Part shown: piece after piece, positions 6,793 through 43,232 of the stretch
Position numbering within the stretch: position 1 is the first letter of the stretch
How the letters are laid out: each line of letters starts with the position of its first letter
Assembly: GCF_025210435.1 (NCBI RefSeq)
Contig: NZ_JAOART010000145.1
Span: forward strand, 1 to 45,627
Direction: 5' to 3'
Source of the DNA: Anaeromicrobium sp.
Lineage (GTDB): Bacteria; Bacillota; Clostridia; Peptostreptococcales; Thermotaleaceae
Length of the DNA: 45,627 nt
Program-made: the position numbers and the translations under genes
The notes under the pieces: model-generated
What the model saw: only the letters and a program-made list of their open reading frames with translations
Told to the model about the DNA's origin: nothing
Databases searched by the model: none

Positions 6793-8328
6793 ATGAAAAA
6801 AAATTCTTTTCTTTACGGCACACTTTTATTAGTAGTTGTAAATTTCATAGTAAGATTTTTAGGATTTTTTTATAAAATAGTTCTTTCACGTATGATAGGT
6901 GCTGAAGGTATAGGGTTATTTCATCTAGTTTTCCCCATTTTAATGATATGCATCACCTTTACCACAGCTGGAATACCTGTAGCCGTATCAAAATTAGTAG
7001 CCCATAATATTTCCTTAGGAAATAAAAAAAATACCTATAGGGTTTTAGCCTTAGCCACCATAACAGGATTTATTATGAGTTCTTTCTTTGCTTTTCTCTT
7101 GTTTAAAAATGCCAGATTTATAAGTGATAACTTATTAAAGTCCTCAGATTCCTACTATAGCCTATTAGGTATTTGTCCCTCTATTGTTTTAATTACTTTA
7201 TCTTCCATATTTAGAGGGTACTACTATGGTATAAAAGAAATGAAGCCTGCTGGTACTTCCCAGGTATTAGAACAAATTTTTAGAATCACATTTGTCATCG
7301 CCACATTATATATACTTGGTCCTATTGAAATTAAATATGCTGCATTTGTTGCTGTAATTGGTATTTCAGTGGGAGAATTGACAGGATTCATATGGTTATT
7401 GTACAACTTTAGGAAAACAACAAGATTAAAAAGAAACTATTCTCCCTTAAAAAACAGACCCCTATTTTACATAACAGATATACTCCTAATAGCTACTCCC
7501 ATAACAATTACTCGATTAATAGCAGTTATTGTACAATCGTTAAACGCCCTATTAATACCTCAAAAACTTCAACTTGCTGGTTATTCCTACGTGGAATCTA
7601 TGAAGGTTTTTGGTAAGATTACAGGAATGGCCTTTCCCTTATTATTTTTGCCCTTTATAGTAACATCTGCTTTAGTAATAAACATTATACCTAACGTGTC
7701 TCAGGAAATGGCCTATAAAAACCTTCATAATATTAGAGTTAAATCTGCTTTAGCCATAAAAATGACCTTATTCGTATCAATTCCACTCTTTGCTCTGTTT
7801 TTAACTTTTTCTGAACCTATTTGTACAGTAATATATAATGAACATGATGTATCCTTTTATCTATCCTTTTTATCTTATTCAGTTATCCTTTGGAGTCTTC
7901 ATCATACGGCAGCAGGAGTGCTCCATGGCATGGGCAAACAAGTAATCACTACTATTAATTACCTACTAGGAACTAGTGTTCAGCTATTTTGTACTTTTTA
8001 TTTAGTCCCTAATCCCCATTATGGTATTAAAGGATTTTTATATGGATTTTTAATATCATCCCTTATAATATGTACTCTTAATGTGTTATCCTTAAAATTT
8101 TTCATAAAAAAAATGCCCATTAAATTTATTAATGACATTTTAAAACCTATAATATGTACTTGTTTCATGATTGCATGTATAAAATTTGCTTACTCAATCT
8201 TACAGATTGGTCTTGTTCTCAATACAACCATAAGCATTTTATTTGGATTTTTAGTATATATGATCTCCATATTACTTACTGGAAGTGTAAAAATTAGTAC
8301 TTTAAAATATGTCTTTACAAAAAAATAA
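6793..8328 (+). CDS. spoVB: Stage V sporulation protein B-like lipid flippase (MOP superfamily)
   Basis: 511 residues with about 14 predicted membrane helices and the polysaccharide-transport/MurJ-like fold. The N-terminus is characteristic of SpoVB (FLGFFYKIVLSRMIGAEGIG, LVFPI, TTAGIPVAVSKLVA), and TITRLIAVIVQSLNALLIP lies mid-protein. SpoVB is needed for spore cortex peptidoglycan and probably moves lipid-linked precursors. AAAGGAGGTC lies just before the ATG. The gene is convergent with the candidate 6S RNA, whose 3' U-run overlaps its stop codon. A paralogue of this family for another polysaccharide cannot be excluded. Confidence 0.85.
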   Translation: MKKNSFLYGTLLLVVVNFIVRFLGFFYKIVLSRMIGAEGIGLFHLVFPILMICITFTTAGIPVAVSKLVAHNISLGNKKNTYRVLALATITGFIMSSFFAFLLFKNARFISDNLLKSSDSYYSLLGICPSIVLITLSSIFRGYYYGIKEMKPAGTSQVLEQIFRITFVIATLYILGPIEIKYAAFVAVIGISVGELTGFIWLLYNFRKTTRLKRNYSPLKNRPLFYITDILLIATPITITRLIAVIVQSLNALLIPQKLQLAGYSYVESMKVFGKITGMAFPLLFLPFIVTSALVINIIPNVSQEMAYKNLHNIRVKSALAIKMTLFVSIPLFALFLTFSEPICTVIYNEHDVSFYLSFLSYSVILWSLHHTAAGVLHGMGKQVITTINYLLGTSVQLFCTFYLVPNPHYGIKGFLYGFLISSLIICTLNVLSLKFFIKKMPIKFINDILKPIICTCFMIACIKFAYSILQIGLVLNTTISILFGFLVYMISILLTGSVKISTLKYVFTKK

Positions 8329-8500
8329 GCCCCAGAATGCCGTTTTGCTTTATAATTCACACCCGCGTCTCAACTAAGTGGGTACCTGCCCCTTATTTCT
8401 GAAGTCCAATAAAGGCATTACATAGATAAGGAAACCCCAGTTCCCGGATGTTATTTGTCGGTTGAATTATGAAGCTTATACGCACATTCTAGGTACGTTT
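8321..8500 (-). ncRNA. ssrS: Candidate 6S RNA
   Basis: An element of about 180 nt in the 288-base gap after spoVB. Its ends pair: AGAATG/CATTCT, then GCTTCATAATTCA with TGAATTATAAAGC, enclosing a partly paired centre containing ACCCACTTAGTTGAGACGCG. On the minus strand it is preceded by a promoter and ends in CTGGGGCTTATTTTTTT. Length, long closing stem, central bubble and terminal U-run fit firmicute 6S RNA, which binds SigA-RNA polymerase. The identification rests on shape and recollection of clostridial 6S sequences, not on a search. Confidence 0.6.
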
Positions 8501-10883: not shown

Positions 10884-10973
10884 TAAATCACTCCTTTTTC
10901 ATTACATATGTACATTTAAACTTATAATTACGTTATAATAAAATTGACAAGGATATATACTAGGAGGTATTTT

Positions 10974-13900
10974 ATGAGCAACATAACTATTCAAGAATTA
11001 TACAATAGTATATCACGGAAATTATTAGATGATTCTTTTTTAAATAAATTCTCACTAAATAGGGATTTTGTCAAAAACCATATAGAGTCTAATCACTTCT
11101 TCTTAGAATTAAGTAAAATAGTTTCTAAAAGGGATTATTCCTGCATTGGAACTTTAAACTTGTGTAAAAACATATTAACAGACTTATGTATAGAACAAGT
11201 TCCTAATAACTGGCTTGAATACCTATATGAATTTTGTTTATCAAAATCCTTTCCCCATGCAGTAAACATAACCCTTAATCCAAAACTACATAGAGCCTCT
11301 TATATTTATCTTGAGGTTTTAAGAATTATATCACAATTTCAAAAGAAATCCAACGATAACACATGGCAGAGTAAGTATCCTCTAAACTTCCTATCAAAGA
11401 AAGAGATGAAGTCACTAGAAGATAGTAGTGAATACATGAAATTCATAAAATCCTTTAACAGGCAATATGTATATGAGCTTATGAAATTAAATCAAGAAGT
11501 TAAAGGATTTAGTACCATAGATCATATATGTGGAGTTCATTATCTTGCCATGTATATTGGAAAGCAGGTCCATAACTCATGCCTATCAATTGATTTAGGT
11601 AGAGTATCCGGTTCTACTGCTGGCCATGATATAGGTAAATTTGGCTGTACTAGTCAAGAACAGAAAAGAGTTCCCTATTTGCACTATTACTATACGGATT
11701 TATGGTTTAATAAAAACAATATAGAATATATAAGAAATATTGCTGCTAACCATTCCGTTTGGGACTTAGAACTTGAAAATCTGTCTATTGAATCTTTAAT
11801 TTTAATATATTGTGACTTTAGAGTTAAAAATGTAAGTACACCAGAGGGATACAAAATGACCATCACATGCCTATCAGATGCCTTTGATGTAATACTTAAT
11901 AAGTTAGATAATATGGATGAGGAAAAGCAAAAGAGATATACAAAGGTTTATAACAAATTAAAAGACTTTGAAAACTTTTTATTAGATTTAGGAATAAGCG
12001 TAGATGTTAATGAAAATATATCTCATAGAAAAAAGGATAAAACATATTATTCCCTGTTACAGGGTAAAGAAATAGTTGATAATGTTAAATATTTATCCAT
12101 ATATCATAACGTGGAGGTAATGCATCTTCTTAGGACAGAAACTTCCCTAGACCTAATATTACAATCTGCAAGAAGTGAAAAAAATGGGCAGACTATAAGG
12201 GAGTATTTAAGTGTTTTTGAAGAATATTCCACATACTTAACTCAAAATCAAAAACTCATTACTTTAAAATTCTTATATGAACTTTTAATCCATCCCGATG
12301 ACGATATTAGGAAACACAGTTCTGAAATAATAGGTAAATTAATAGCCATATATGACACTGAATATAGGAAAGAATTACCAAAAAATGCAAGTATATGTAT
12401 GGATAATATTACTAGCAAAGAACTTCTTAATAAGTACATTCAGTTATTCCTATATCCTAGCCACAAGATAATTCCTAAACATCAAGAATGGATAGGAGAA
12501 TTATTAAACACTATGATTAGTTCTTTCTTTGAAAATCATAAAAAGAAAAGTTCTAAAATATTAAATTTAAATACCGCTGACTATATCTACACTTTAATCC
12601 GATTTTATAACAAGGAAATCCATGATAGTAATAGGCTCTTTTATTTAATTGACACCATTAAGCATATTCCTTTTACTAGAAAGGACTCCTATTATGAAAG
12701 TTTCTTTTACTTTCTAATTGATATATGCGATTCACAGGAAGTATTTTTGAGAATAAGCGGATTAAATAGTTTGATTTACATAATAAATTCAGATCCTATT
12801 GAAGGAATTTTTATTGAAAAAGTAGAAAAATTAATTATGGATTATCCCTACAAAAACAATTCTATTGTGGAGGATTATCTTCTTGTTAAAATAAACAAAA
12901 AATTAAATATTAATAAGGAATATGATTCTTTAGAATTAAGTCAAAGTGATTTATCATCTATTTCTCTAAAAAATTTAAAGTCTGCTACTAATCCTATAAT
13001 TAAAAAAGTTCAAATAGAAATTTTATTGGAAAATGCTTTAACTAGTAGGGAACATGAAAAGTTCAAGGTGGCCCTTCATTATTGCAACCTTTTAAAGGTA
13101 AGTTCTCATAACCATGTAAGAAGGGAAGCTGGCCTTGCTATTTTAAAGTTAATACACCACTTGTCCTATGAAAATAGAAATGAAATTGTAGTTGAGTTAG
13201 TAGGGGCATTAGAACTTACAGGATATCAATTTTCAAAATATATACCTAACTATTTAGGTGAAATAATTCTAACTTTAAGACCTAATGAATTAGATGATTT
13301 TATTAAAGAATTTAGTCTTAAAATTAAAACATCTAACGATAATATAAGCTCCTTGTTACTAAAAACCATCGGAGTTGCCGTTGCAAATTATTCAATTTAT
13401 AGAAATGAATTTTCTCAAGATGATACATGTCACAGCAAACGCCTTATGAATATGTTAGGCCTTTTATTAAATGGCCTTGTTCACTATTCTCCAAAGGTAG
13501 AACAAATGGCTTTAGGAGTAATAGGTAGGTCCATATTTGCTTCTAATAAAATTGATTTAGAAGAAAAAAATAGTATATTTAAACTCATAGCTAAAAAAAT
13601 ATTGAACCTAGTAAGGAAAGATAAAAATAATTCTCTGTTGTTTTTATCTAATGGAGCATCATTACATCATATATATAAATTTATTTCTGATTACATATTT
13701 ACTAAGGGGGATTATTGCCTAACATTGCCTGAGAAAATCGCATTTTTCCCTGGTACCTTCGACCCATTTTCCCTTAGCCATAAAAAGATTGTAACCTCTG
13801 TAAGGGATTTAGGTTTTGAAGTTTATTTAGCCATAGATGAGTTTTCTTGGTCTAAGCAAACCCTTCCCCATAAGTTGAGAAAAAATATAATTAATATGTC

Positions 13901-15866
13901 CATAGCAAGCGAACTGGATATATACACATATCCAAAAGAATTGCCCACTAATATAGCTAATGATGAAAATCTGAAAGTTTTGAGGGATAATTTCCCCTAC
14001 TCTCATGTTAACATTGTAGTTGGAAGTGATGTTATTATAAATGCATCTGCCTATAATAAAGAAAATACAAAGGATTCTATCCAGTCCTTTCCCCATATAG
14101 TATTTGACAGGAACAATCTATTATCTAAAAAGGAATCTAGTAAAAAACTTAAGACCATATCAGATAAATTATCTAGCCCATGTACAGTATTAACATTATC
14201 TGCTCCCTTTGAAGAAATTAGTTCTACTCAAATAAGAAACTATATAGATGAGAATAGGGATATTTCTAGTTTAATAGATCCACTGGCTCAAAGATATATA
14301 TATGAAAATGGTTTTTACAGAAGTGAGCCTCAATTTAAGAGTCCTACTGAAAAATTATCCTTTAAAGTTCAAATAGTCGAAAACTTCGATATAGATTCAA
14401 TAAATGAATTGTCCTCTTTATTTAGGGACCATTACGAAGATTCTCGATCAAAATTAGTAGACTTTTGTAATAAGCCCTCTGCTAGAATATTGATTTTAAG
14501 AGACTTAAATAGGAATGGACAAATCCTTGGTTTTTCCATCCATCATTGGACTAGATTAAATTCCCTATACAATGATTTAAAAAATATAAAAGTTTCCGAA
14601 TATGTGAGGGAAAACTCTAGTGGAAGGATATTGATTTTAGATGGAATATTTACAAATATGGGTAAAAATGGACGAGAATTAGAACAGATAATATTAACAG
14701 AAACCCTATCATTTTGTATTTCTAAGGACTATGAGTATGCCGTATATAATAACATGCTCCCTAAGTATCATTCTAATACATTACAAGAAATTTTATCTTT
14801 ACAGGGCTTTTTAAAATTAGATTTTAGTAATGAATCTAATGCCGTATATGTAACTAGCATGAATTCTCCAACCACCCTGTATTTAGATATTGAAACAGTA
14901 ATGAAAGAACCCTTTAAAAGTAATATCCATGTGCAAAAGGCCATAATAGAATCTAGAAAGAAAATCCAAAATGCCCTAACAAAACTATATCCTGGTAATT
15001 TGGTTTTATCCTTTAATAGACAAATTTTACACGAGAGATTAATTAGAAAAATATGTGCTCAAAATAACGTTCCAACTATACCCTTTGTTCCCAAAAAACT
15101 AGGAAAGGCCATGTGCGTATCCTTTGGTAATATGTTAAATAGAAGTATAATACCAAATACGGTGACCAAATCTATGCACACAGAAAAAATGTTTTTCCCA
15201 CATATGGATGATTTTAAAATAGGCCCTTTCCCCCATTACACTGATCTTGATACACAGGTGAAAATGATAAAATCCTTCAATAGACCTGTCATATTAATAG
15301 ATGATATTCTACATAAGGGTTATAGAAATAATGTTATCCATCCCCTACTTCAGAAGCATGAAGTCAATGTGGAAAAAACTATTGTGGGACTATTATCTGC
15401 CCGTGGAAAGGAACTTATAGATAGACAGGGAAGGCATGTGGATTGTGCCTATTATATACCAAAATTAAGAGCATGGTTTAACGAAAGCTATCTTCTACCC
15501 TTTTTCGGTGGAGATACCCTGTGGCGTGGAGAAACTCCAAGGAGGAATTTAATACCTTCTGTAAATCTATTATTGCCCTATACGTCACCAACATACATTG
15601 CAAAAGCGTCTAATGAATCCATATATAATTTATCAAAGACTTGTATCCAAGCTTCCATAAACATATTAACTTCCATTGAAAATGAATATCATAATATTAA
15701 CGAAAGAAAATTAACATTAGAATCTTTAGGTGAAGTATTTATAGCACCCCGTTGTCCAGACCAAGGTCGTGGAATGCACTATGATTTAAATTTAAATCCA
15801 TCCCACTACCTGTTAAATGACTTAGAACGCTTAAGTAGGCTAAAACAAATATTAATAGAAAAGTAG
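10974..15866 (+). CDS. Giant HD / HEAT-like / NadD-like / GNAT-like / PRTase-like fusion protein
   Basis: 1,630 residues; ATG at 10974 with AGGAGG 7 bases upstream. Domains in order: (1) HD phosphohydrolase, about 175-330, with H184, H218-D219 in GHDIGKFG, H260 and D281; (2) helical HEAT/ARM-like repeats, about 380-910; (3) NadD/cytidylyltransferase-like Rossmann domain, about 921-1110, with FFPGTFDPF and the ISSTQIR signature at 1082-1088; (4) a GNAT-like region, about 1128-1300; (5) a phosphoribosyltransferase-like region, about 1320-1560, with the PRPP-loop-like VILIDDILHKGYR at 1439-1451. In domain 3 the HxGH motif reads SLSH, losing the first histidine. No signal peptide or membrane segment, so cytoplasmic. 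The next gene starts 8 bases later. Domains 1, 3 and 5 are readable from motifs; 2 and 4 are weaker. HD and NadD are neighbours in NAD operons (NadD-YqeK), so a nucleotide-type product is a reasonable inference. Confidence 0.8.
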   Translation: MSNITIQELYNSISRKLLDDSFLNKFSLNRDFVKNHIESNHFFLELSKIVSKRDYSCIGTLNLCKNILTDLCIEQVPNNWLEYLYEFCLSKSFPHAVNITLNPKLHRASYIYLEVLRIISQFQKKSNDNTWQSKYPLNFLSKKEMKSLEDSSEYMKFIKSFNRQYVYELMKLNQEVKGFSTIDHICGVHYLAMYIGKQVHNSCLSIDLGRVSGSTAGHDIGKFGCTSQEQKRVPYLHYYYTDLWFNKNNIEYIRNIAANHSVWDLELENLSIESLILIYCDFRVKNVSTPEGYKMTITCLSDAFDVILNKLDNMDEEKQKRYTKVYNKLKDFENFLLDLGISVDVNENISHRKKDKTYYSLLQGKEIVDNVKYLSIYHNVEVMHLLRTETSLDLILQSARSEKNGQTIREYLSVFEEYSTYLTQNQKLITLKFLYELLIHPDDDIRKHSSEIIGKLIAIYDTEYRKELPKNASICMDNITSKELLNKYIQLFLYPSHKIIPKHQEWIGELLNTMISSFFENHKKKSSKILNLNTADYIYTLIRFYNKEIHDSNRLFYLIDTIKHIPFTRKDSYYESFFYFLIDICDSQEVFLRISGLNSLIYIINSDPIEGIFIEKVEKLIMDYPYKNNSIVEDYLLVKINKKLNINKEYDSLELSQSDLSSISLKNLKSATNPIIKKVQIEILLENALTSREHEKFKVALHYCNLLKVSSHNHVRREAGLAILKLIHHLSYENRNEIVVELVGALELTGYQFSKYIPNYLGEIILTLRPNELDDFIKEFSLKIKTSNDNISSLLLKTIGVAVANYSIYRNEFSQDDTCHSKRLMNMLGLLLNGLVHYSPKVEQMALGVIGRSIFASNKIDLEEKNSIFKLIAKKILNLVRKDKNNSLLFLSNGASLHHIYKFISDYIFTKGDYCLTLPEKIAFFPGTFDPFSLSHKKIVTSVRDLGFEVYLAIDEFSWSKQTLPHKLRKNIINMSIASELDIYTYPKELPTNIANDENLKVLRDNFPYSHVNIVVGSDVIINASAYNKENTKDSIQSFPHIVFDRNNLLSKKESSKKLKTISDKLSSPCTVLTLSAPFEEISSTQIRNYIDENRDISSLIDPLAQRYIYENGFYRSEPQFKSPTEKLSFKVQIVENFDIDSINELSSLFRDHYEDSRSKLVDFCNKPSARILILRDLNRNGQILGFSIHHWTRLNSLYNDLKNIKVSEYVRENSSGRILILDGIFTNMGKNGRELEQIILTETLSFCISKDYEYAVYNNMLPKYHSNTLQEILSLQGFLKLDFSNESNAVYVTSMNSPTTLYLDIETVMKEPFKSNIHVQKAIIESRKKIQNALTKLYPGNLVLSFNRQILHERLIRKICAQNNVPTIPFVPKKLGKAMCVSFGNMLNRSIIPNTVTKSMHTEKMFFPHMDDFKIGPFPHYTDLDTQVKMIKSFNRPVILIDDILHKGYRNNVIHPLLQKHEVNVEKTIVGLLSARGKELIDRQGRHVDCAYYIPKLRAWFNESYLLPFFGGDTLWRGETPRRNLIPSVNLLLPYTSPTYIAKASNESIYNLSKTCIQASINILTSIENEYHNINERKLTLESLGEVFIAPRCPDQGRGMHYDLNLNPSHYLLNDLERLSRLKQILIEK

Positions 15867-15874
15867 GGATTAAA

Positions 15875-17113
15875 ATGTATTATTATAAACTTAATGACAA
15901 ATTGTTATTCTCTCAAAATTCATATGAAGATTTGGAAAACTGCACTTTAAAAGAAATAATTAATTCTAATGAGGTTATATATTATTTAGTAGATAGGAAT
16001 CCTAAGTTCTTTAGGGATTCCTACTCTGTATCCCATATGGATTTACTCTTTTTTAAAAGGGAAGGTATAAACTTAATAGATGATTGTCGTATACCTATGA
16101 TTACGGAAAAATGGATACAGGATAAAATAAATAATAATAAAATTTGTGCCATAAACACTGCTTACCCAAATTGGAAAAAATTACTTATACCTAAACCTAA
16201 TAGGAAATTTAAAATAAACATAGTGGGCTTAGGAGATGTGGGTGGAACTTTAGGTATAGGCCTTCGTCTCCTTGGTGGAGATATAGTAGAAAAAATAGGC
16301 CTTTATAACATAGATTCTAATTCACTACATAGATGGAATTACGAATTGAATCAAATCTACTCCATGGACAAAACTCAGTTTCCTTCTGTAGAAATAATAG
16401 ATGAGGATGATCTATTTAATTGTGATTTATTTGCCTTTTGCGCTTCTGCCTTTGTTCCTAAGGTTGGTTCTAATGTAGGTGATGTACGTATGGTTCAATT
16501 TGAAAAAAATTCAAAGATCCTATCTATATATGCTAAATTAGCCCGTGAAAGAAATTTCAAAGGAATATTTGCTGTAGTATCAGATCCTGTTGACCTCTTA
16601 TGTAAAGTAACCTTTTTAGAGAGTAATAAAAACTCCAGTGGTGATTTAGACTTTAATGGATTATTCCCTAGCCAAATAAGGGGCTATGGTTTGGGAGTAA
16701 TGCACGCTCGTGCCCTTTATTACTCTAAGGAAAATGAAAAAACTATCCCTTACGAAGATGAAGGTCGTGCTTATGGTCCCCATGGAAATGGCTTAGTTAT
16801 AGCTAATAGTATATATGATTATGATGAAGATCTATCTATAGAGTTAACCAAAAAGGCAAGGGAAGGAAACTTAGATGTTAGGGCTACAGGATTTAAACCA
16901 TTTATAGGACCAGCCCTATCATCTGGAGCCTTATCCCTACTTGCCACCTTACGTGGAGATTGGAACTATAGTGCTACTTTCATGGGTGGAGTTTTTATGG
17001 GTGCTAAAAACAGATTAATGCCTAGTGGCTTGGAAATAGAGAGGGTGAAACTTCCTAGTAAATTGTATACAAGACTTGTTACTACCTATGAAGAACTGGT
17101 GAATATAATATGA
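15875..17113 (+). CDS. Lactate/malate dehydrogenase-like NAD(P)-binding protein
   Basis: 412 residues. The first ~110 form an extra N-terminal domain I do not recognise. From about residue 112 an LDH/MDH-type Rossmann domain begins with VGLGDVGGTLGIGLRLLG (117 on). The VVSDPVDLL segment parallels the NPVD loop of LDH/MDH, and IRGYGLGVMHARALYYS and YGPHGNG occupy the places of the catalytic VIGxGTxLD/R and GEHGD segments. A dehydrogenase on a 2-hydroxy/2-keto acid-like group is plausible, but the altered loop means the substrate is not lactate or malate by default. It starts 8 bases after the giant gene and overlaps the next gene by 4, so the three are translationally linked. Confidence 0.7.
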   Translation: MYYYKLNDKLLFSQNSYEDLENCTLKEIINSNEVIYYLVDRNPKFFRDSYSVSHMDLLFFKREGINLIDDCRIPMITEKWIQDKINNNKICAINTAYPNWKKLLIPKPNRKFKINIVGLGDVGGTLGIGLRLLGGDIVEKIGLYNIDSNSLHRWNYELNQIYSMDKTQFPSVEIIDEDDLFNCDLFAFCASAFVPKVGSNVGDVRMVQFEKNSKILSIYAKLARERNFKGIFAVVSDPVDLLCKVTFLESNKNSSGDLDFNGLFPSQIRGYGLGVMHARALYYSKENEKTIPYEDEGRAYGPHGNGLVIANSIYDYDEDLSIELTKKAREGNLDVRATGFKPFIGPALSSGALSLLATLRGDWNYSATFMGGVFMGAKNRLMPSGLEIERVKLPSKLYTRLVTTYEELVNII

Positions 17114-18165
17114 TGGACTTATATATTTTAGGTTCTAATAGTAGATCTGAAATTTTAAATAATATGGTATTAAATAGTACTAAAAACTTAAATCCTATTA
17201 TGGTTGACAAAGTAAGTGAACTTTCTAATCTACAGGGAAAAAAACTACTTTTTGCCATAGAATTAAATAATATTGGAGTTTGCTATGACACTTTAAAGAC
17301 AATAGAGTATTTACAAAACCTAGGAAGTGAAAGTCTTATTAACTGTACAGGAGCCCTTTTAATCCATGGTCCTAACGAACTATACACTAAAAATTTCAGC
17401 AGAGAAATAATTTTTTTAGCCAATTCCCTAGGGTGTGCTTTCATAGGCCATCCCCTAGTGGAGGCCATAGGTAATCTGAAAAACTTTTTAACTTGGCAAA
17501 AGACTATGGATATGACTTTAGAAGAAATATGCTATAGCCTATCTAAAAAGCTTGTGAGTAGATTAGTAAATTTCACAGAAGAAAAGATAGTAAATCCTAA
17601 TATTTTAGCTCTACACTCTAGTTCCTATAAAACATCTAATACTTTATCCCTATGGAATCTAGTTAAAAACCATTTACCTAACTTTACAGAATTTCATGTG
17701 GAAAATGGAACCGTATTAGATTGTACAGGTTGTTCTTTTAAAACTTGTATGCACTATAGTGAAAAAAATAGTTGTTTCTACGGGGGAGTCATGGTTGAAG
17801 AAATCTATCCTTCTATTGAAAGGGCCCATAGCATACTCTTTTTATGCCCTAATTACAACGATGCCATCTCGGCTAATTTGTCTGCTGTTATTAACAGATT
17901 AACAGCCCTTTATAGGAAGCATTCCTTTTATGAAAAGAACCTTTTTTCCATAGTAGTATCAGGAAACTCTGGCAGTGATATTGTGGCTAAACAACTACTA
18001 GGTGCCTTAAATATTAATAAGGGATTTAGATTACCACCCTATTTTTCCCTCATGGGTACGGCCAATGAACCTAAAAGTATTTTAAATCATGATAATATAA
18101 AAAGCATATCAAAGGATTTTTCTAGTCACATATTAAATGAAAGCAAAAGGCAAATTTTTACTTAA
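17110..18165 (+). CDS. Tandem flavodoxin-like (NADPH-dependent FMN reductase/iron-sulfur flavoprotein-like) protein
   Basis: 351 residues starting in an ATGATG overlap with the previous stop. The C-terminal half (about 165-351) is an FMN-reductase/flavodoxin domain: NILALHSSSYKTSNT, ILFLCPNYNDAISANLSAVI, and a cysteine cluster at C205, C208, C212 and C221 in the place where archaeal iron-sulfur flavoproteins bind [4Fe-4S]. The N-terminal half (ILGSNSRSE, GALLIHGPNE, and a GNLKNFLTW-like end) looks like a second, degenerate copy of the same fold. It probably supplies electrons to, or reduces the product of, its two operon partners; this is inference from position. Confidence 0.7.
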   Translation: MMDLYILGSNSRSEILNNMVLNSTKNLNPIMVDKVSELSNLQGKKLLFAIELNNIGVCYDTLKTIEYLQNLGSESLINCTGALLIHGPNELYTKNFSREIIFLANSLGCAFIGHPLVEAIGNLKNFLTWQKTMDMTLEEICYSLSKKLVSRLVNFTEEKIVNPNILALHSSSYKTSNTLSLWNLVKNHLPNFTEFHVENGTVLDCTGCSFKTCMHYSEKNSCFYGGVMVEEIYPSIERAHSILFLCPNYNDAISANLSAVINRLTALYRKHSFYEKNLFSIVVSGNSGSDIVAKQLLGALNINKGFRLPPYFSLMGTANEPKSILNHDNIKSISKDFSSHILNESKRQIFT

Positions 18166-27085: not shown

Positions 27086-28747
27086 TTAATGTTCTAGAAC
27101 AGCCGTATAGTTCCCATCTTTATCTTTTGTTAGGTTAAAATTCCTACTTTCAAGTTTGTCATAATAATGGCTAATAGGATTGTAATTCTTTATCTTATAT
27201 TCATCCAGCATTAACTCTCTCAAATTCACAAGATTTTTTAATGGCTTTATATCATATATTTCATTGTATTTAATATCTAGGTTTCTTAATTGTATAAGAT
27301 TGCTCAATGAACTTATATCACTTATTCCATTATCGCTAATATCAATAGAATTTAGATTTTGTAAATTACTTACTACAGATATGTCTTTTATTTTATTGCC
27401 TCCAACGCCTAAATACGTTAAATTTATTAGGTTTTTTATTGGCTTTATATTATCTATTTCATTATCCCTTAAATTTAAGACCTGTAATTTCGGAAGATTG
27501 CCTATTGAATCTATATTAGTTATTTGATTTTTACTAATTTCTAGTGACTGTAAATTTTCTAAATCACGAAGTACAGATATATCAGTTATATGGTTTCCAT
27601 CTAAGTATAAATCAGTCAAATTCTCACACTTTTTTAGTGGCTCAATATTACTTACTTTATTATTATATAAAATTAGAGATTTTAAATTAACGAGATTTCT
27701 TAATGATCTTATGTCAACTATATCATTATTATTAAAAGAATCATGTTCATAATTACCAAGTCTTAATGACGTTAAATTTACAAGTTTTCTCAATGCCCCT
27801 ATATCATTTACTTTATTATTTCCTATATCTAAATCAGTTAAATTTATAAGGTTTCTTAACGAATTTATATTTTGTATGTCATTCCCTGAAATACCCAGAA
27901 CCCTTAGATTGGTCATTTTTGTCAATGGTTCTATATTGCTTATTTTGTTATCATCAACGTACAATACTTCCAGTCTAGTTAAGTTTTTTAAGGGTGTTAT
28001 ATCCTTTACTTTTCTATTATATCCTATCCTTAAGTCAACTAAATTCTCAAGACTTTTTAATGGAGAAATATCTTCTATTTGATTGCCACCTATGCCCAAA
28101 TAATATATCTTAACTAAATTACTTAGTGGTTCTATGTCTTTTATATTGTTACCGTGTATGTCTAACCACGCCACATTAGTTAGGTTTTCTAACGGTTTTA
28201 TATTGTTTATTTTATTAGAATCCAAACTTATATTAATCAAAGAACTCATTTCTTTTAATGGATCTAAATTACTTATATTATTATAATCTAAATTTAAGTG
28301 CTCTAAGTCAACCAAATTTTTTAATAACCTGACATCATCTATTTCATTGTGTGAAAGATTCAAACTCAATAAATTATTAAGATTTTTCAAGTGTTTTATA
28401 TTGCATATTTTATTATTGCTCATTTCCAAATATTTTAAATTCACGAAACATTCCATTCCTTCTAGATTGCTAATATTCTGATTATTTATCACCAATTCTT
28501 CAATATCACTGACCTCGTCTTTATACATGTCACCTACAGGTTTATTTATTGCATTTCTTATTGCTTTTTCTAAATTTTCATCTGGAAAATGAATATGCTC
28601 ACAATTCTCCCTAATTGCAGGTATTACAATGGTAACTTCTGTATCTAATGTTATATCTTGTGCATGAATGTTCAATGCCGTATTGCTTAACAATGTTATT
28701 ATTACGCACATTGTCAATACACCTGACTTTATTATTGTTTTCTTCAT
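27086..28747 (-). CDS. Secreted leucine-rich-repeat protein (SDS22/internalin-like)
   Basis: 553 residues. A signal peptide (KKTIIKSGVLTMCVIITLLS) ends near NIHAQ. A short region with PDENLEKAIRNAI follows, as at the start of internalin-type repeats. Then come about 20 repeats of 22 residues of the type L-x2-L-x-L-x2-N-x-I-x-(D/N)-I-x-(P/S)-L. One repeat near residue 330 carries a short insertion (EHDSFNNN). No LPxTG, SLH or GW anchor is seen, so it is secreted or held by other means. AGGAGG precedes the ATG at 28747. LRR proteins bind protein partners; the target is unknown. The gene is bounded by a mobile element 126 bp upstream, suggesting recent arrival or an unstable region. Confidence 0.88.
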   Translation of the reverse strand: MKKTIIKSGVLTMCVIITLLSNTALNIHAQDITLDTEVTIVIPAIRENCEHIHFPDENLEKAIRNAINKPVGDMYKDEVSDIEELVINNQNISNLEGMECFVNLKYLEMSNNKICNIKHLKNLNNLLSLNLSHNEIDDVRLLKNLVDLEHLNLDYNNISNLDPLKEMSSLINISLDSNKINNIKPLENLTNVAWLDIHGNNIKDIEPLSNLVKIYYLGIGGNQIEDISPLKSLENLVDLRIGYNRKVKDITPLKNLTRLEVLYVDDNKISNIEPLTKMTNLRVLGISGNDIQNINSLRNLINLTDLDIGNNKVNDIGALRKLVNLTSLRLGNYEHDSFNNNDIVDIRSLRNLVNLKSLILYNNKVSNIEPLKKCENLTDLYLDGNHITDISVLRDLENLQSLEISKNQITNIDSIGNLPKLQVLNLRDNEIDNIKPIKNLINLTYLGVGGNKIKDISVVSNLQNLNSIDISDNGISDISSLSNLIQLRNLDIKYNEIYDIKPLKNLVNLRELMLDEYKIKNYNPISHYYDKLESRNFNLTKDKDGNYTAVLEH

Positions 28748-29110
28748 AAATCCTCCTCTTGTGTCATTAGTTAATACCATATTACCATTTTTTAGCATAT
28801 ATTTGAATATATTACATCAATTTTACTACAACTAAAAAAAATGGAAAAGGTGAAATATATGGTATATATCTCTCTGACCTACGTACAGTGATTAGTGTAT
28901 TTTATGAATAAAATCTATAATTTGTAACTACCTTCACTCTAAAGTTTTCGCTCCTTGACTTGAACTATTATATTATTGTTAAATAGAAGGATTTCTATCA
29001 CTTTTATTCCTTTTTAGAAAAATAATGGAAATAGATAGAGTTACAAATACCCTATCATGGCCATATCCAATGTTAAATTTAACCATAAATTCTAAAATAA
29101 CTAGACTTTA

Positions 29111-41813: not shown

Positions 41814-43232
41814 CTATTCTTTTTCCACATTATTTTTTTTCATATTCTTTTGGATTTCTTCTTTTATTATTTTATCCCATTTATCCACATATGAGTAGAT
41901 AGCCCACTCTGCCATTACCACCTTTTCATCTTCTTTCTTATCTATTACAGCCATGGGATCTTTAGAAAGTCCTATTTCTTCAATTTCATATATATATATT
42001 TTTTTATCACTTATTATTATAGCCACATCCCTATTAGGAGATGTAAATCCATCTATGGCCTCCGGAACCTTTTTCTCCACTTCCAACCAACTTATATGAA
42101 ATTTATCATAATTCACTATTTTTTTTGAAGGAAATCTTTCCACTTGAAAATCGAAATAATCCCTATTACTGTCATTATAATAAGTTCTTCCCTTCATGGC
42201 CCAATGACCCTTATATCTATATAGCATAAAATTATCTTCCCTAAGATTTTTATCTAAGCTATCATAAATACTTTTATGTAAAGAGTTTAATAATCTTTTA
42301 AAACCAACAAAATAGTCTTCTTTTAATTTTTTTCCACCCACATCAGAAACTTTTATCCCAATACGTTCCTTAAGCCCATCTATAGGAATTATCTTAAATC
42401 TCATTTCATTAGTTTCATTATGCCTATATTCTATCCCCATGTATTCACTGGCTGTAAAAACTATTTTCTTTTCCCTATCCCATTCATTAGCTTCTTCCCT
42501 TATTATATCTTCTTCATTTTTTATAGGATATGCATATATAAGGTTAGGAATTCCATCTTCTTCACCTGTAAGTGCCACTTTCCAAAATCCAGTTTTTCTT
42601 GGTACAAACAAAAAATTCATTTCTAAAATAGGATTTAATTTATTTTCCTTTGTACTTATCCATAGGGTCTTATATTCTTTAGAGTCACTTCTCATACCTA
42701 TTAATACTCCCGTTTTAGATATTTTTTTATCTAAAGGAGCTTTTATAAATTCTACTTTTTCTTCATCCTTCATTTTCTTCACATTGAAAAATATATACTC
42801 TACAAAAATCACCAGATCATTGTCATCCACTTTAATAAACTGAGCAAATAACTTTCCATTAGAAATTATATCAATTATTTCAACTTCTTTTTTACTTATA
42901 CCAAGACTTTTAGGGCTCACCTTATAAGTATTTGAAAAATATTTCTCAGTATTCACCCTTTTCACCTTATAGGAAGGCCTTTTCCATACTTCATTTCCTA
43001 TTTGAATCTTATCTTCACTAAATATTATCCTACTATTAATCCATTTATTTAAATTTTTTTCAACATTTAAATCATTTAGTATTAGTCTATAATCTTTTAT
43101 ACTCCAACTTCCATGAACAGGTATGGCTTCATTATTAGGAGCTATCACATTATCAGCTTTTTCTATTTTCAAATCCATACAACCAGAAAGGAAGGTCATA
43201 AAAATTATAACTACAAATATTTTATACTTCAT
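41814..43232 (-). CDS. Large lipoprotein of unknown function
   Basis: 472 residues with a short signal peptide and lipobox FLSGC near residue 17; the cysteine is the likely lipidation site. The rest is soluble, beta-rich and charged, with HGSWSIKDYRL near the N-terminus. I recognise no domain. Its start overlaps the kinase 3' end by 11 bases, so it is made with the two-component system and may be its sensor partner or output at the cell surface. Confidence 0.7.
   Translation of the reverse strand: MKYKIFVVIIFMTFLSGCMDLKIEKADNVIAPNNEAIPVHGSWSIKDYRLILNDLNVEKNLNKWINSRIIFSEDKIQIGNEVWKRPSYKVKRVNTEKYFSNTYKVSPKSLGISKKEVEIIDIISNGKLFAQFIKVDDNDLVIFVEYIFFNVKKMKDEEKVEFIKAPLDKKISKTGVLIGMRSDSKEYKTLWISTKENKLNPILEMNFLFVPRKTGFWKVALTGEEDGIPNLIYAYPIKNEEDIIREEANEWDREKKIVFTASEYMGIEYRHNETNEMRFKIIPIDGLKERIGIKVSDVGGKKLKEDYFVGFKRLLNSLHKSIYDSLDKNLREDNFMLYRYKGHWAMKGRTYYNDSNRDYFDFQVERFPSKKIVNYDKFHISWLEVEKKVPEAIDGFTSPNRDVAIIISDKKIYIYEIEEIGLSKDPMAVIDKKEDEKVVMAEWAIYSYVDKWDKIIKEEIQKNMKKNNVEKE

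Follow-up and report, generated by a model that had tools for sequence, protein, structure and literature searches.

A conserved three-gene operon of Clostridia that joins a multi-domain HD/NadD-like/phosphoribosyltransferase-like protein to two putative redox enzymes, and its possible role in a nucleotide-cofactor pathway

The stretch of DNA analysed here ('the window') is a contig of 45,627 nucleotides (C105; NZ_JAOART010000145.1) from a species of Anaeromicrobium, the genome of which (3.96 Mb) is assembled in 148 contigs. Three co-directional genes on its forward strand encode a very large multi-domain protein, a protein that resembles lactate and malate dehydrogenases (LDH and MDH; 'LDH-like' below), and a flavoprotein:

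10974..15866, forward strand: multi-domain protein of 1,630 residues (open frame; ribosome-binding site AGGAGG at 10962-10967; full-length homologues in dozens of genomes)
15875..17113, forward strand: LDH/MDH-like dehydrogenase of 412 residues, with an N-terminal extension of about 108 residues (Ldh_1_N)
17110..18165, forward strand: FMN_red flavoprotein of 351 residues, with cysteines C205/C208/C213/C222

The initial annotation had taken these genes for an operon, and this is confirmed: eight bases separate the large gene from the LDH-like gene, a four-base ATGA overlap joins the latter to the flavoprotein gene, and the large gene most likely begins at the ATG at 10974, downstream of the AGGAGG. 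The same genome holds a second three-gene operon, whose large protein is 58% identical to that of the window. Thirty aligned homologues are 28-61% identical to the window protein, and no Pfam, NCBIfam or PADLOC model spans its whole length.

Conservation and distribution of the gene set

Among 99 sampled relatives of the same order, 64 carry the large gene (at E <=1e-60), 63 of these 64 carry the LDH-like gene and 60 the flavoprotein gene, while neither partner gene was found in the 35 relatives that do not carry the large gene (weak matches to ordinary homologues being left uncounted). The linkage proposed at the outset thus holds, and rare co-occurrence of the three genes, which would have spoken against it, was looked for and not seen. 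A tally at E 1e-3 gives 76 of 99 genomes; the lower figure of 64 was used because the remaining genomes match only the NadD stretch. The uncounted weak matches are, for the LDH-like protein, those in G002 (67 residues near a contig end), G066 and G074 and, for the flavoprotein, those in G046, G050, G074 and G084 and a 59-residue piece in G072. Exceptions among the carriers are few: G002, where the locus lies at a contig end; G072, with a partial flavoprotein match; and G038 and G046, with none.

The same picture emerges from the loci themselves. Where at least 3 kb of downstream sequence could be fetched (86 loci), the LDH-like gene was present in 79 and the flavoprotein gene in 75, the misses consisting of seven stand-alone paralogues and four loci without a flavoprotein gene. 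Order and strand are constant in all 80 loci that hold the three genes, with gaps of <=98 bp in 72 and of <=81 bp in 74 of them, and any further gene family is present in at most 12 of 100 neighbourhoods. The divergence of the three proteins is correlated across 79 loci (r 0.71, 0.87 and 0.78, against maxima of 0.18-0.27 after shuffling) and remains so when near-identical pairs are removed (0.68, 0.86 and 0.77), a correlation to which shared ancestry contributes. These neighbourhood, gap, divergence and linkage counts include some places that were fetched twice (for example L066 and L126). In two Bacillota loci (L075, 7921-13233; L078, 14957-20154), 5.4-5.6 kb lie between the large and LDH-like genes, an insert that, as read from sequence, seems to hold an ammonium transporter and three genes of glutamate-synthase type.

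The large gene was found in 25 of 291 sampled genomes of the class (E <=1e-60) and the LDH-like gene in 8 of 398 sampled genomes of the phylum (1e-40), the genome of the window being included in both counts. The named loci are the best 80 of 569 confirmed stretches; of these 80, 10 belong to Atribacterota, one is labelled Calditrichales and 69 are titled Clostridia or other Bacillota. Clostridium carboxidivorans P7 is among the carriers. A quick tree with midpoint rooting places Atribacterota (six non-redundant sequences) in a single supported group next to Tepidibacter and Alkalithermobacter, which would fit a single transfer between phyla. The record labelled Calditrichales bacterium MX18-03 (L105; Calditrichota by taxonomy) groups inside Clostridia in that tree and, reading its neighbourhood by eye, has an apparent Firmicutes-type rpoD-dnaG arrangement, so the label may be wrong. 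In another record (L003, NZ_CP154629.1), the operon sits on a 2.63 Mb Acetoanaerobium noterae 'plasmid' with 4 annotated features that looks like a chromosome.

Domains of the large protein

The initial annotation had described the large protein as a fusion of an HD hydrolase, helical repeats, a NadD-like core, a GNAT-like stretch and a phosphoribosyltransferase (PRTase)-like region. This set of domains is borne out, with firm assignments for NadD, HEAT and GNAT and weaker, though controlled, sequence evidence for HD and PRTase:

11391..12023, forward strand: HD phosphohydrolase domain, residues ~140-350 (H184, H218-D219, K222, H260, D281)
12066..13715, forward strand: HEAT-type helical solenoid, residues ~365-914 (fold search)
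13716..14339, forward strand: NadD-like adenylyltransferase domain, residues ~915-1122 ([S/T]x[S/G]H at 933-936, ISSTQIR at 1082-1088)
14355..14867, forward strand: GNAT-fold domain without an acetyl-CoA loop, residues 1128-1298 (fold search)
14868..15863, forward strand: type I PRTase-like domain, residues ~1299-1630 (loop of phosphoribosyl pyrophosphate (PRPP) type at 1439-1451)

Conservation of residues was counted over 95 non-redundant homologues of the large protein; the alignments of the HD region (A4) and the PRTase-like region (A5) each hold 48 of these 95, and alignments A6, A7 and A8 hold 35, 30 and 33 of 36 listed sequences, respectively. The catalytic residues of the HD, NadD and PRTase regions are near-invariant.

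The NadD-like domain gives the clearest family match. It scores 25.5 bits against PF01467 (cut-off 21), aligns with true NadD at an hhalign value of 99.1% and matches PDB entries 3h05 and 5llt by profile. Residues F929, D930, W959 and R1088 are present in 95/95 homologues, S or T at position 933 in 94, S or G at 935 in 93, H936 in 93, and both S1083 and S1084 in 93. The nucleotidyltransferase signatures (H/T)xGH and ISSTxxR are therefore present in a variant form, in which the first position is S/T rather than H: the sequence is [S/T]-L-[S/G]-H, the CoaD-like form of (H/T)xGH. With NadD (TIGR00482) and VPA0413 (3h05) the domain shares a family likeness, the (H/T)xGH-type motif, ISSTxxR and a YIYENGLY-type end, and with 3h05 also SLxHK and a WxK segment; it differs from NadD in a score far under the curated cut-off (41.9 of 112.45 bits), an SWSK segment, its fused context and the presence of an ordinary NadD as well. 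Such an ordinary NadD, above the family cut-off, occurs in 94/99 genomes and in 63/64 carriers (all but G046), from which it follows that the large protein is not the housekeeping enzyme of NAD synthesis, a role that was considered and rejected. Two genomes (G013 and G021) have two NadD copies each above the family cut-off besides that of the large protein.

In the HD region, the H...HD...D pattern of metal ligands that typifies the superfamily is present: H184, H218, D219, K222 and D281 are kept in 95/95 homologues and H260 in 94. The Pfam HD model matches 23 of the 48 A4 members at E <=0.1 (best 1.1e-5), the window protein itself giving no match, and a profile of the region ranks the HD proteins of its own genome above the PRTases (10 of the 11 own-genome PRTases were used; p 0.001), as none of five other regions does significantly. 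The named model matched most often is NCBIfam NF045665, the HD-containing half of a nucleoside triphosphate (NTP) transferase family; it is matched weakly by 29 of 35 members (the best score seen is 23.3 bits, the cut-off 315; matches fall within positions 181-312 of 359) and not by the window protein, and TIGR00295 is matched by 14 of the 35 as well. A search of the region against PDB sequences returned nothing up to E 5.

The GNAT-like stretch suggested earlier has the GNAT fold but lacks the acetyl-CoA loop [QR]xxGx[GA], which is absent from all 33 aligned sequences (columns 96-135); a PDB sequence search of this region returned just a sulfotransferase (E 1.2). A free-standing gene for the GNAT-PRTase module was not found in 196 genomes: its 18 places (in 16 of the 196) all lie in frames of at least 1,573 residues, save one of 882 at a contig end.

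The PRPP-loop-like motif of the C-terminal region is acceptable in its acids but atypical in the rest. D1443 is invariant (95/95), position 1444 is D in 81 and N in 14, and K1448, G1449 and R1451 are kept in 90, 94 and 94 homologues, so that KGYR stands for TGxT, with Lys and Arg at the usual positions of the phosphate-binding Thr. Type I PRTases (PF00156; PurF, PyrR, Hpt) share with this region a hydrophobic strand, two acids and a glycine loop, and differ from it in that loop and in lacking its extra C-terminal part. PF00156 matches 21 of the 48 A5 members at E <=0.1 (best 6.9e-4; the window protein itself does not match), and the C-terminal profile prefers the PRTases of its own genome to the HD proteins (p 8.9e-6). 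The three PDB sequence matches, to a sulfotransferase (E 0.14), a hypoxanthine PRTase (E 0.74) and a ribosomal protein (E 0.94), are at chance level.

The fold search that had been proposed as a check thus supports GNAT and HEAT. The list for the HD region is taken up by solenoid matches and that for the PRTase region, in spite of a good model, by GNAT matches; HD and PRTase folds are not among the listed rows of either, which says nothing against these two assignments because matches to the neighbouring domains filled the lists.

The two partner proteins

All 30 aligned LDH-like proteins match the NAD-binding domain profile Ldh_1_N, and R205, N212, R279 and H303 are kept in all of them, with R279 and H303 spaced by 24 residues in 28 proteins and by 21 in two. 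An alignment to an LDH-type chain reached as far as the Arg171 region; R205, R279 and H303 are taken to be Arg109, Arg171 and His195 in LDH numbering, M276 to be Asp168 and D237 to be Asn140. The family assignment made initially is therefore retained for the NAD-binding half and for both arginines and the histidine that L-lactate and malate dehydrogenases share with these proteins, but the site has been altered: the catalytic Asp is M276 and the Asn140 position is D237 in 30/30, leaving the histidine without its Asp168 partner, and GPHG stands for GEHG. The substrate may thus be unusual, given Met for the usual Asp. The N-terminal extension is found in most members and is absent or short in L056, L057, L063 and L072.

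The flavoprotein had been read as a tandem of flavodoxin-like halves. FMN_red is matched in 30/30 (62 bits for the window protein, residues 164-315), whereas comparison of the two halves gives no support to a tandem repeat (hhalign 0.4%), and only the C-terminal half is demonstrably flavodoxin-like; against PDB, the flavoprotein profile returned nothing at 1e-3. The cysteines, initially numbered C205/C208/C212/C221, are in fact C205/C208/C213/C222, and their spacing, CX2CX4CX8C, is invariant (30/30). They may bind an iron-sulfur (Fe-S) cluster. Iron-sulfur flavoproteins (Isf) share an FMN_red domain and four invariant cysteines; these carry CX2CX2CX5-7C according to PMC3164229, from which the spacing found here departs; the protein here also differs in its unassigned N-terminal half, and the compact motif CX2CX2CX4-7C occurs in 0/30.

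A possible nucleotide-cofactor pathway and its alternatives

A described system with this architecture was sought in protein families, structures and open-licence PMC full texts, and none was found, in agreement with the initial statement that no characterised one was known; the operon and its architecture as a whole appear to be undescribed to that extent. A close precedent is a fusion of NadD and YqeK in a mycoplasma (JCVISYN3A_0380), in which, according to PMC9426524, an HD hydrolase and a NadD-type transferase share one polypeptide, with the HD domain cleaving wrong products of NadD; the pairing of HD and NadD therefore has a tested precedent. A similar fusion logic is seen in NadM, an adenylyltransferase joined to an NAD-cleaving Nudix domain (PMC9503650). 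In contrast to the mycoplasma protein, the large protein here has an N-terminal HD domain that is split off by the HEAT solenoid and is not clearly of YqeK type; it also has GNAT and PRTase-like domains, and its operon includes two redox genes.

The initial proposal, that the operon makes, recycles or repairs a nucleotide-like cofactor or signal, is partly supported by these results. The reading that we favour, tentatively and at less than an even chance, is that the operon encodes a pathway centred on a nucleotide cofactor or metabolite of phosphoribosyl origin. This reading builds on a fixed gene set, on the families or folds of the NadD, HEAT and GNAT domains, on the conserved HD, NadD and PRTase signatures and on the Arg/Arg/His of the LDH-like protein. 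PRPP, or some phosphoribosyl compound, would be handled by the PRTase-like domain. The NadD-like domain would couple the mononucleotide so formed to another nucleotide, AMP derived from ATP being the likeliest, and wrong or spent products would be hydrolysed by the HD domain, in proofreading or turnover, just as YqeK acts for NadD. The sites would be held together by the HEAT solenoid, and the GNAT-fold domain might bind an intermediate or be structural. The LDH-like enzyme and the Fe-S flavoprotein might act on the product by oxidation or reduction, or might make use of it. We infer each substrate, the order of the steps and the action of both partners on the same molecule. A one-chain pathway of phosphoribosyl handling, nucleotidyl transfer and HD hydrolysis, served by two redox enzymes, is the most economical reading and a plausible one on sequence grounds. 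A bolder version, which we regard as doubtful, is that a new redox cofactor or nucleotide signal of anaerobes is made from PRPP by a single HEAT-based 'assembly line' of phosphoribosyl transfer, adenylylation and HD proofreading, that the product is completed or used by an Fe-S flavoprotein and a dedicated LDH-like dehydrogenase whose active site has been rebuilt, and that the system spread through Clostridia into Atribacterota. That the large protein is found in 64 of 99 sampled relatives within one order, and in another phylum as well, points to an overlooked anaerobic metabolism; a cofactor or signal so made would be a molecule not known so far, repair of NAD-type nucleotides would be a new branch of metabolite damage control, and the conserved residues make the large protein directly testable.

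Several observations weigh against the cofactor pathway. The HD domain is not recognisably YqeK when compared with that of the same order (hhalign 5.1%, the alignment being confined to the H and HD stretch). In the NadD-like domain, S/T takes the place of the initial His of HxGH, although T at this position is normal in CoaD. The PRPP-type loop is DDxLxKGYR rather than the canonical DD-x-x-x-TGxT, and the PRTase-like domain may therefore be inactive or have another ligand. Four loci (L077, L088, L147 and L152) have no flavoprotein gene despite more than 8 kb of downstream sequence, and four full-length stand-alone paralogues (L053, L054, L118 and L131) have no partners nearby, yet keep the listed active-site residues, including those of NadD and PRTase (L054 has Tyr at H260; the table of paralogue residues leaves out L061). 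A three-gene operon exists elsewhere in the genomes of L053, L054 and L131 (G007, G009 and G014), as it does in G015, where L118 was placed by matching coordinates.

Among the alternatives, it is fairly unlikely that the system serves quality control of NAD(H), the large protein and its partners repairing or salvaging damaged or isomeric nicotinamide nucleotides: HD would cleave wrong dinucleotides, the NadD-like domain rebuild them and the partners oxidise abnormal reduced forms. NadD as the clearest family match, the ordinary NadD retained in 63 of 64 carriers (as expected of a repair branch), the Met in the LDH-like site and the precedent for HD and NadD proofreading (PMC9426524) all favour it, whereas the distance of the HD domain from YqeK does not. 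The PRTases that act on nicotinate or nicotinamide, moreover, belong to a class other than type I, which also counts against it. Unlikely, too, is a scaffold-type sensor or regulator, in which GNAT and PRTase-like domains on a HEAT solenoid would read PRPP or a nucleotide and control HD (perhaps NadD), with the partners as redox output. The solenoid itself, a GNAT domain without its acetyl-CoA loop in 33/33 and the atypical PRPP loop agree with such a device, and two short, divergent paralogues (L055 and L062) keep all six HD residues while their NadD residues decay (H936 is Gln, and L062 has also lost the PRTase loop), which suggests that HD activity can be kept without the transferase; against it, the conservation of the NadD and PRTase signatures over all 95 homologues falls little short of that of the HD site.

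Were the HD and PRTase assignments look-alikes, the large protein would have some other activity, a possibility suggested by the absent or chance-level PDB matches of these regions, by the failure of the window protein itself to match Pfam HD or PF00156 and by fold lists filled with HEAT and GNAT; the Pfam matches of 23/48 and 21/48 members and the controlled profile rankings (not significant for five other regions) make this improbable. More improbable again is a role in maturing some other cofactor into a dinucleotide form for use by the two partner oxidoreductases. Molybdopterin may be matured in this way by HD-containing NTP transferases of the DVU_1551 type, and this family (NF045665) likewise combines an HD domain with a nucleotidyltransferase in one protein, but the HD region matches it weakly and TIGR00295 too, the other half of that family, which we take to be MobA-like, belongs to a different transferase family from the NadD-like half here, and neither partner is a known molybdenum enzyme.

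Other associations were tried and rejected. Sporulation shows no link (Spo0A in 38/64 carriers and 16/35 non-carriers, p 0.21). For Stickland metabolism, the glycine reductase GrdB occurs in 56/64 carriers and 22/35 non-carriers (p 0.009, ignoring kinship), and is at most a correlate of lifestyle, given that some carriers lack it (for example G024, G035, G049 and G077) and that some non-carriers (five of the six f4 g13 genomes) have it. For a defence or mobile origin, there was no PADLOC match up to E 1, no match in 50,697 phage records and no relative among 104 stretches in a scan of viral contigs.

Elsewhere in the window, the reverse strand holds a 6S RNA gene (8325-8498, 61.1 bits), a leucine-rich-repeat protein of 570 residues (27086-28798), an unusual neighbour for metabolic genes, and a 472-residue frame (41814-43232) that adjoins a histidine kinase and has no Pfam match at 1e-5.

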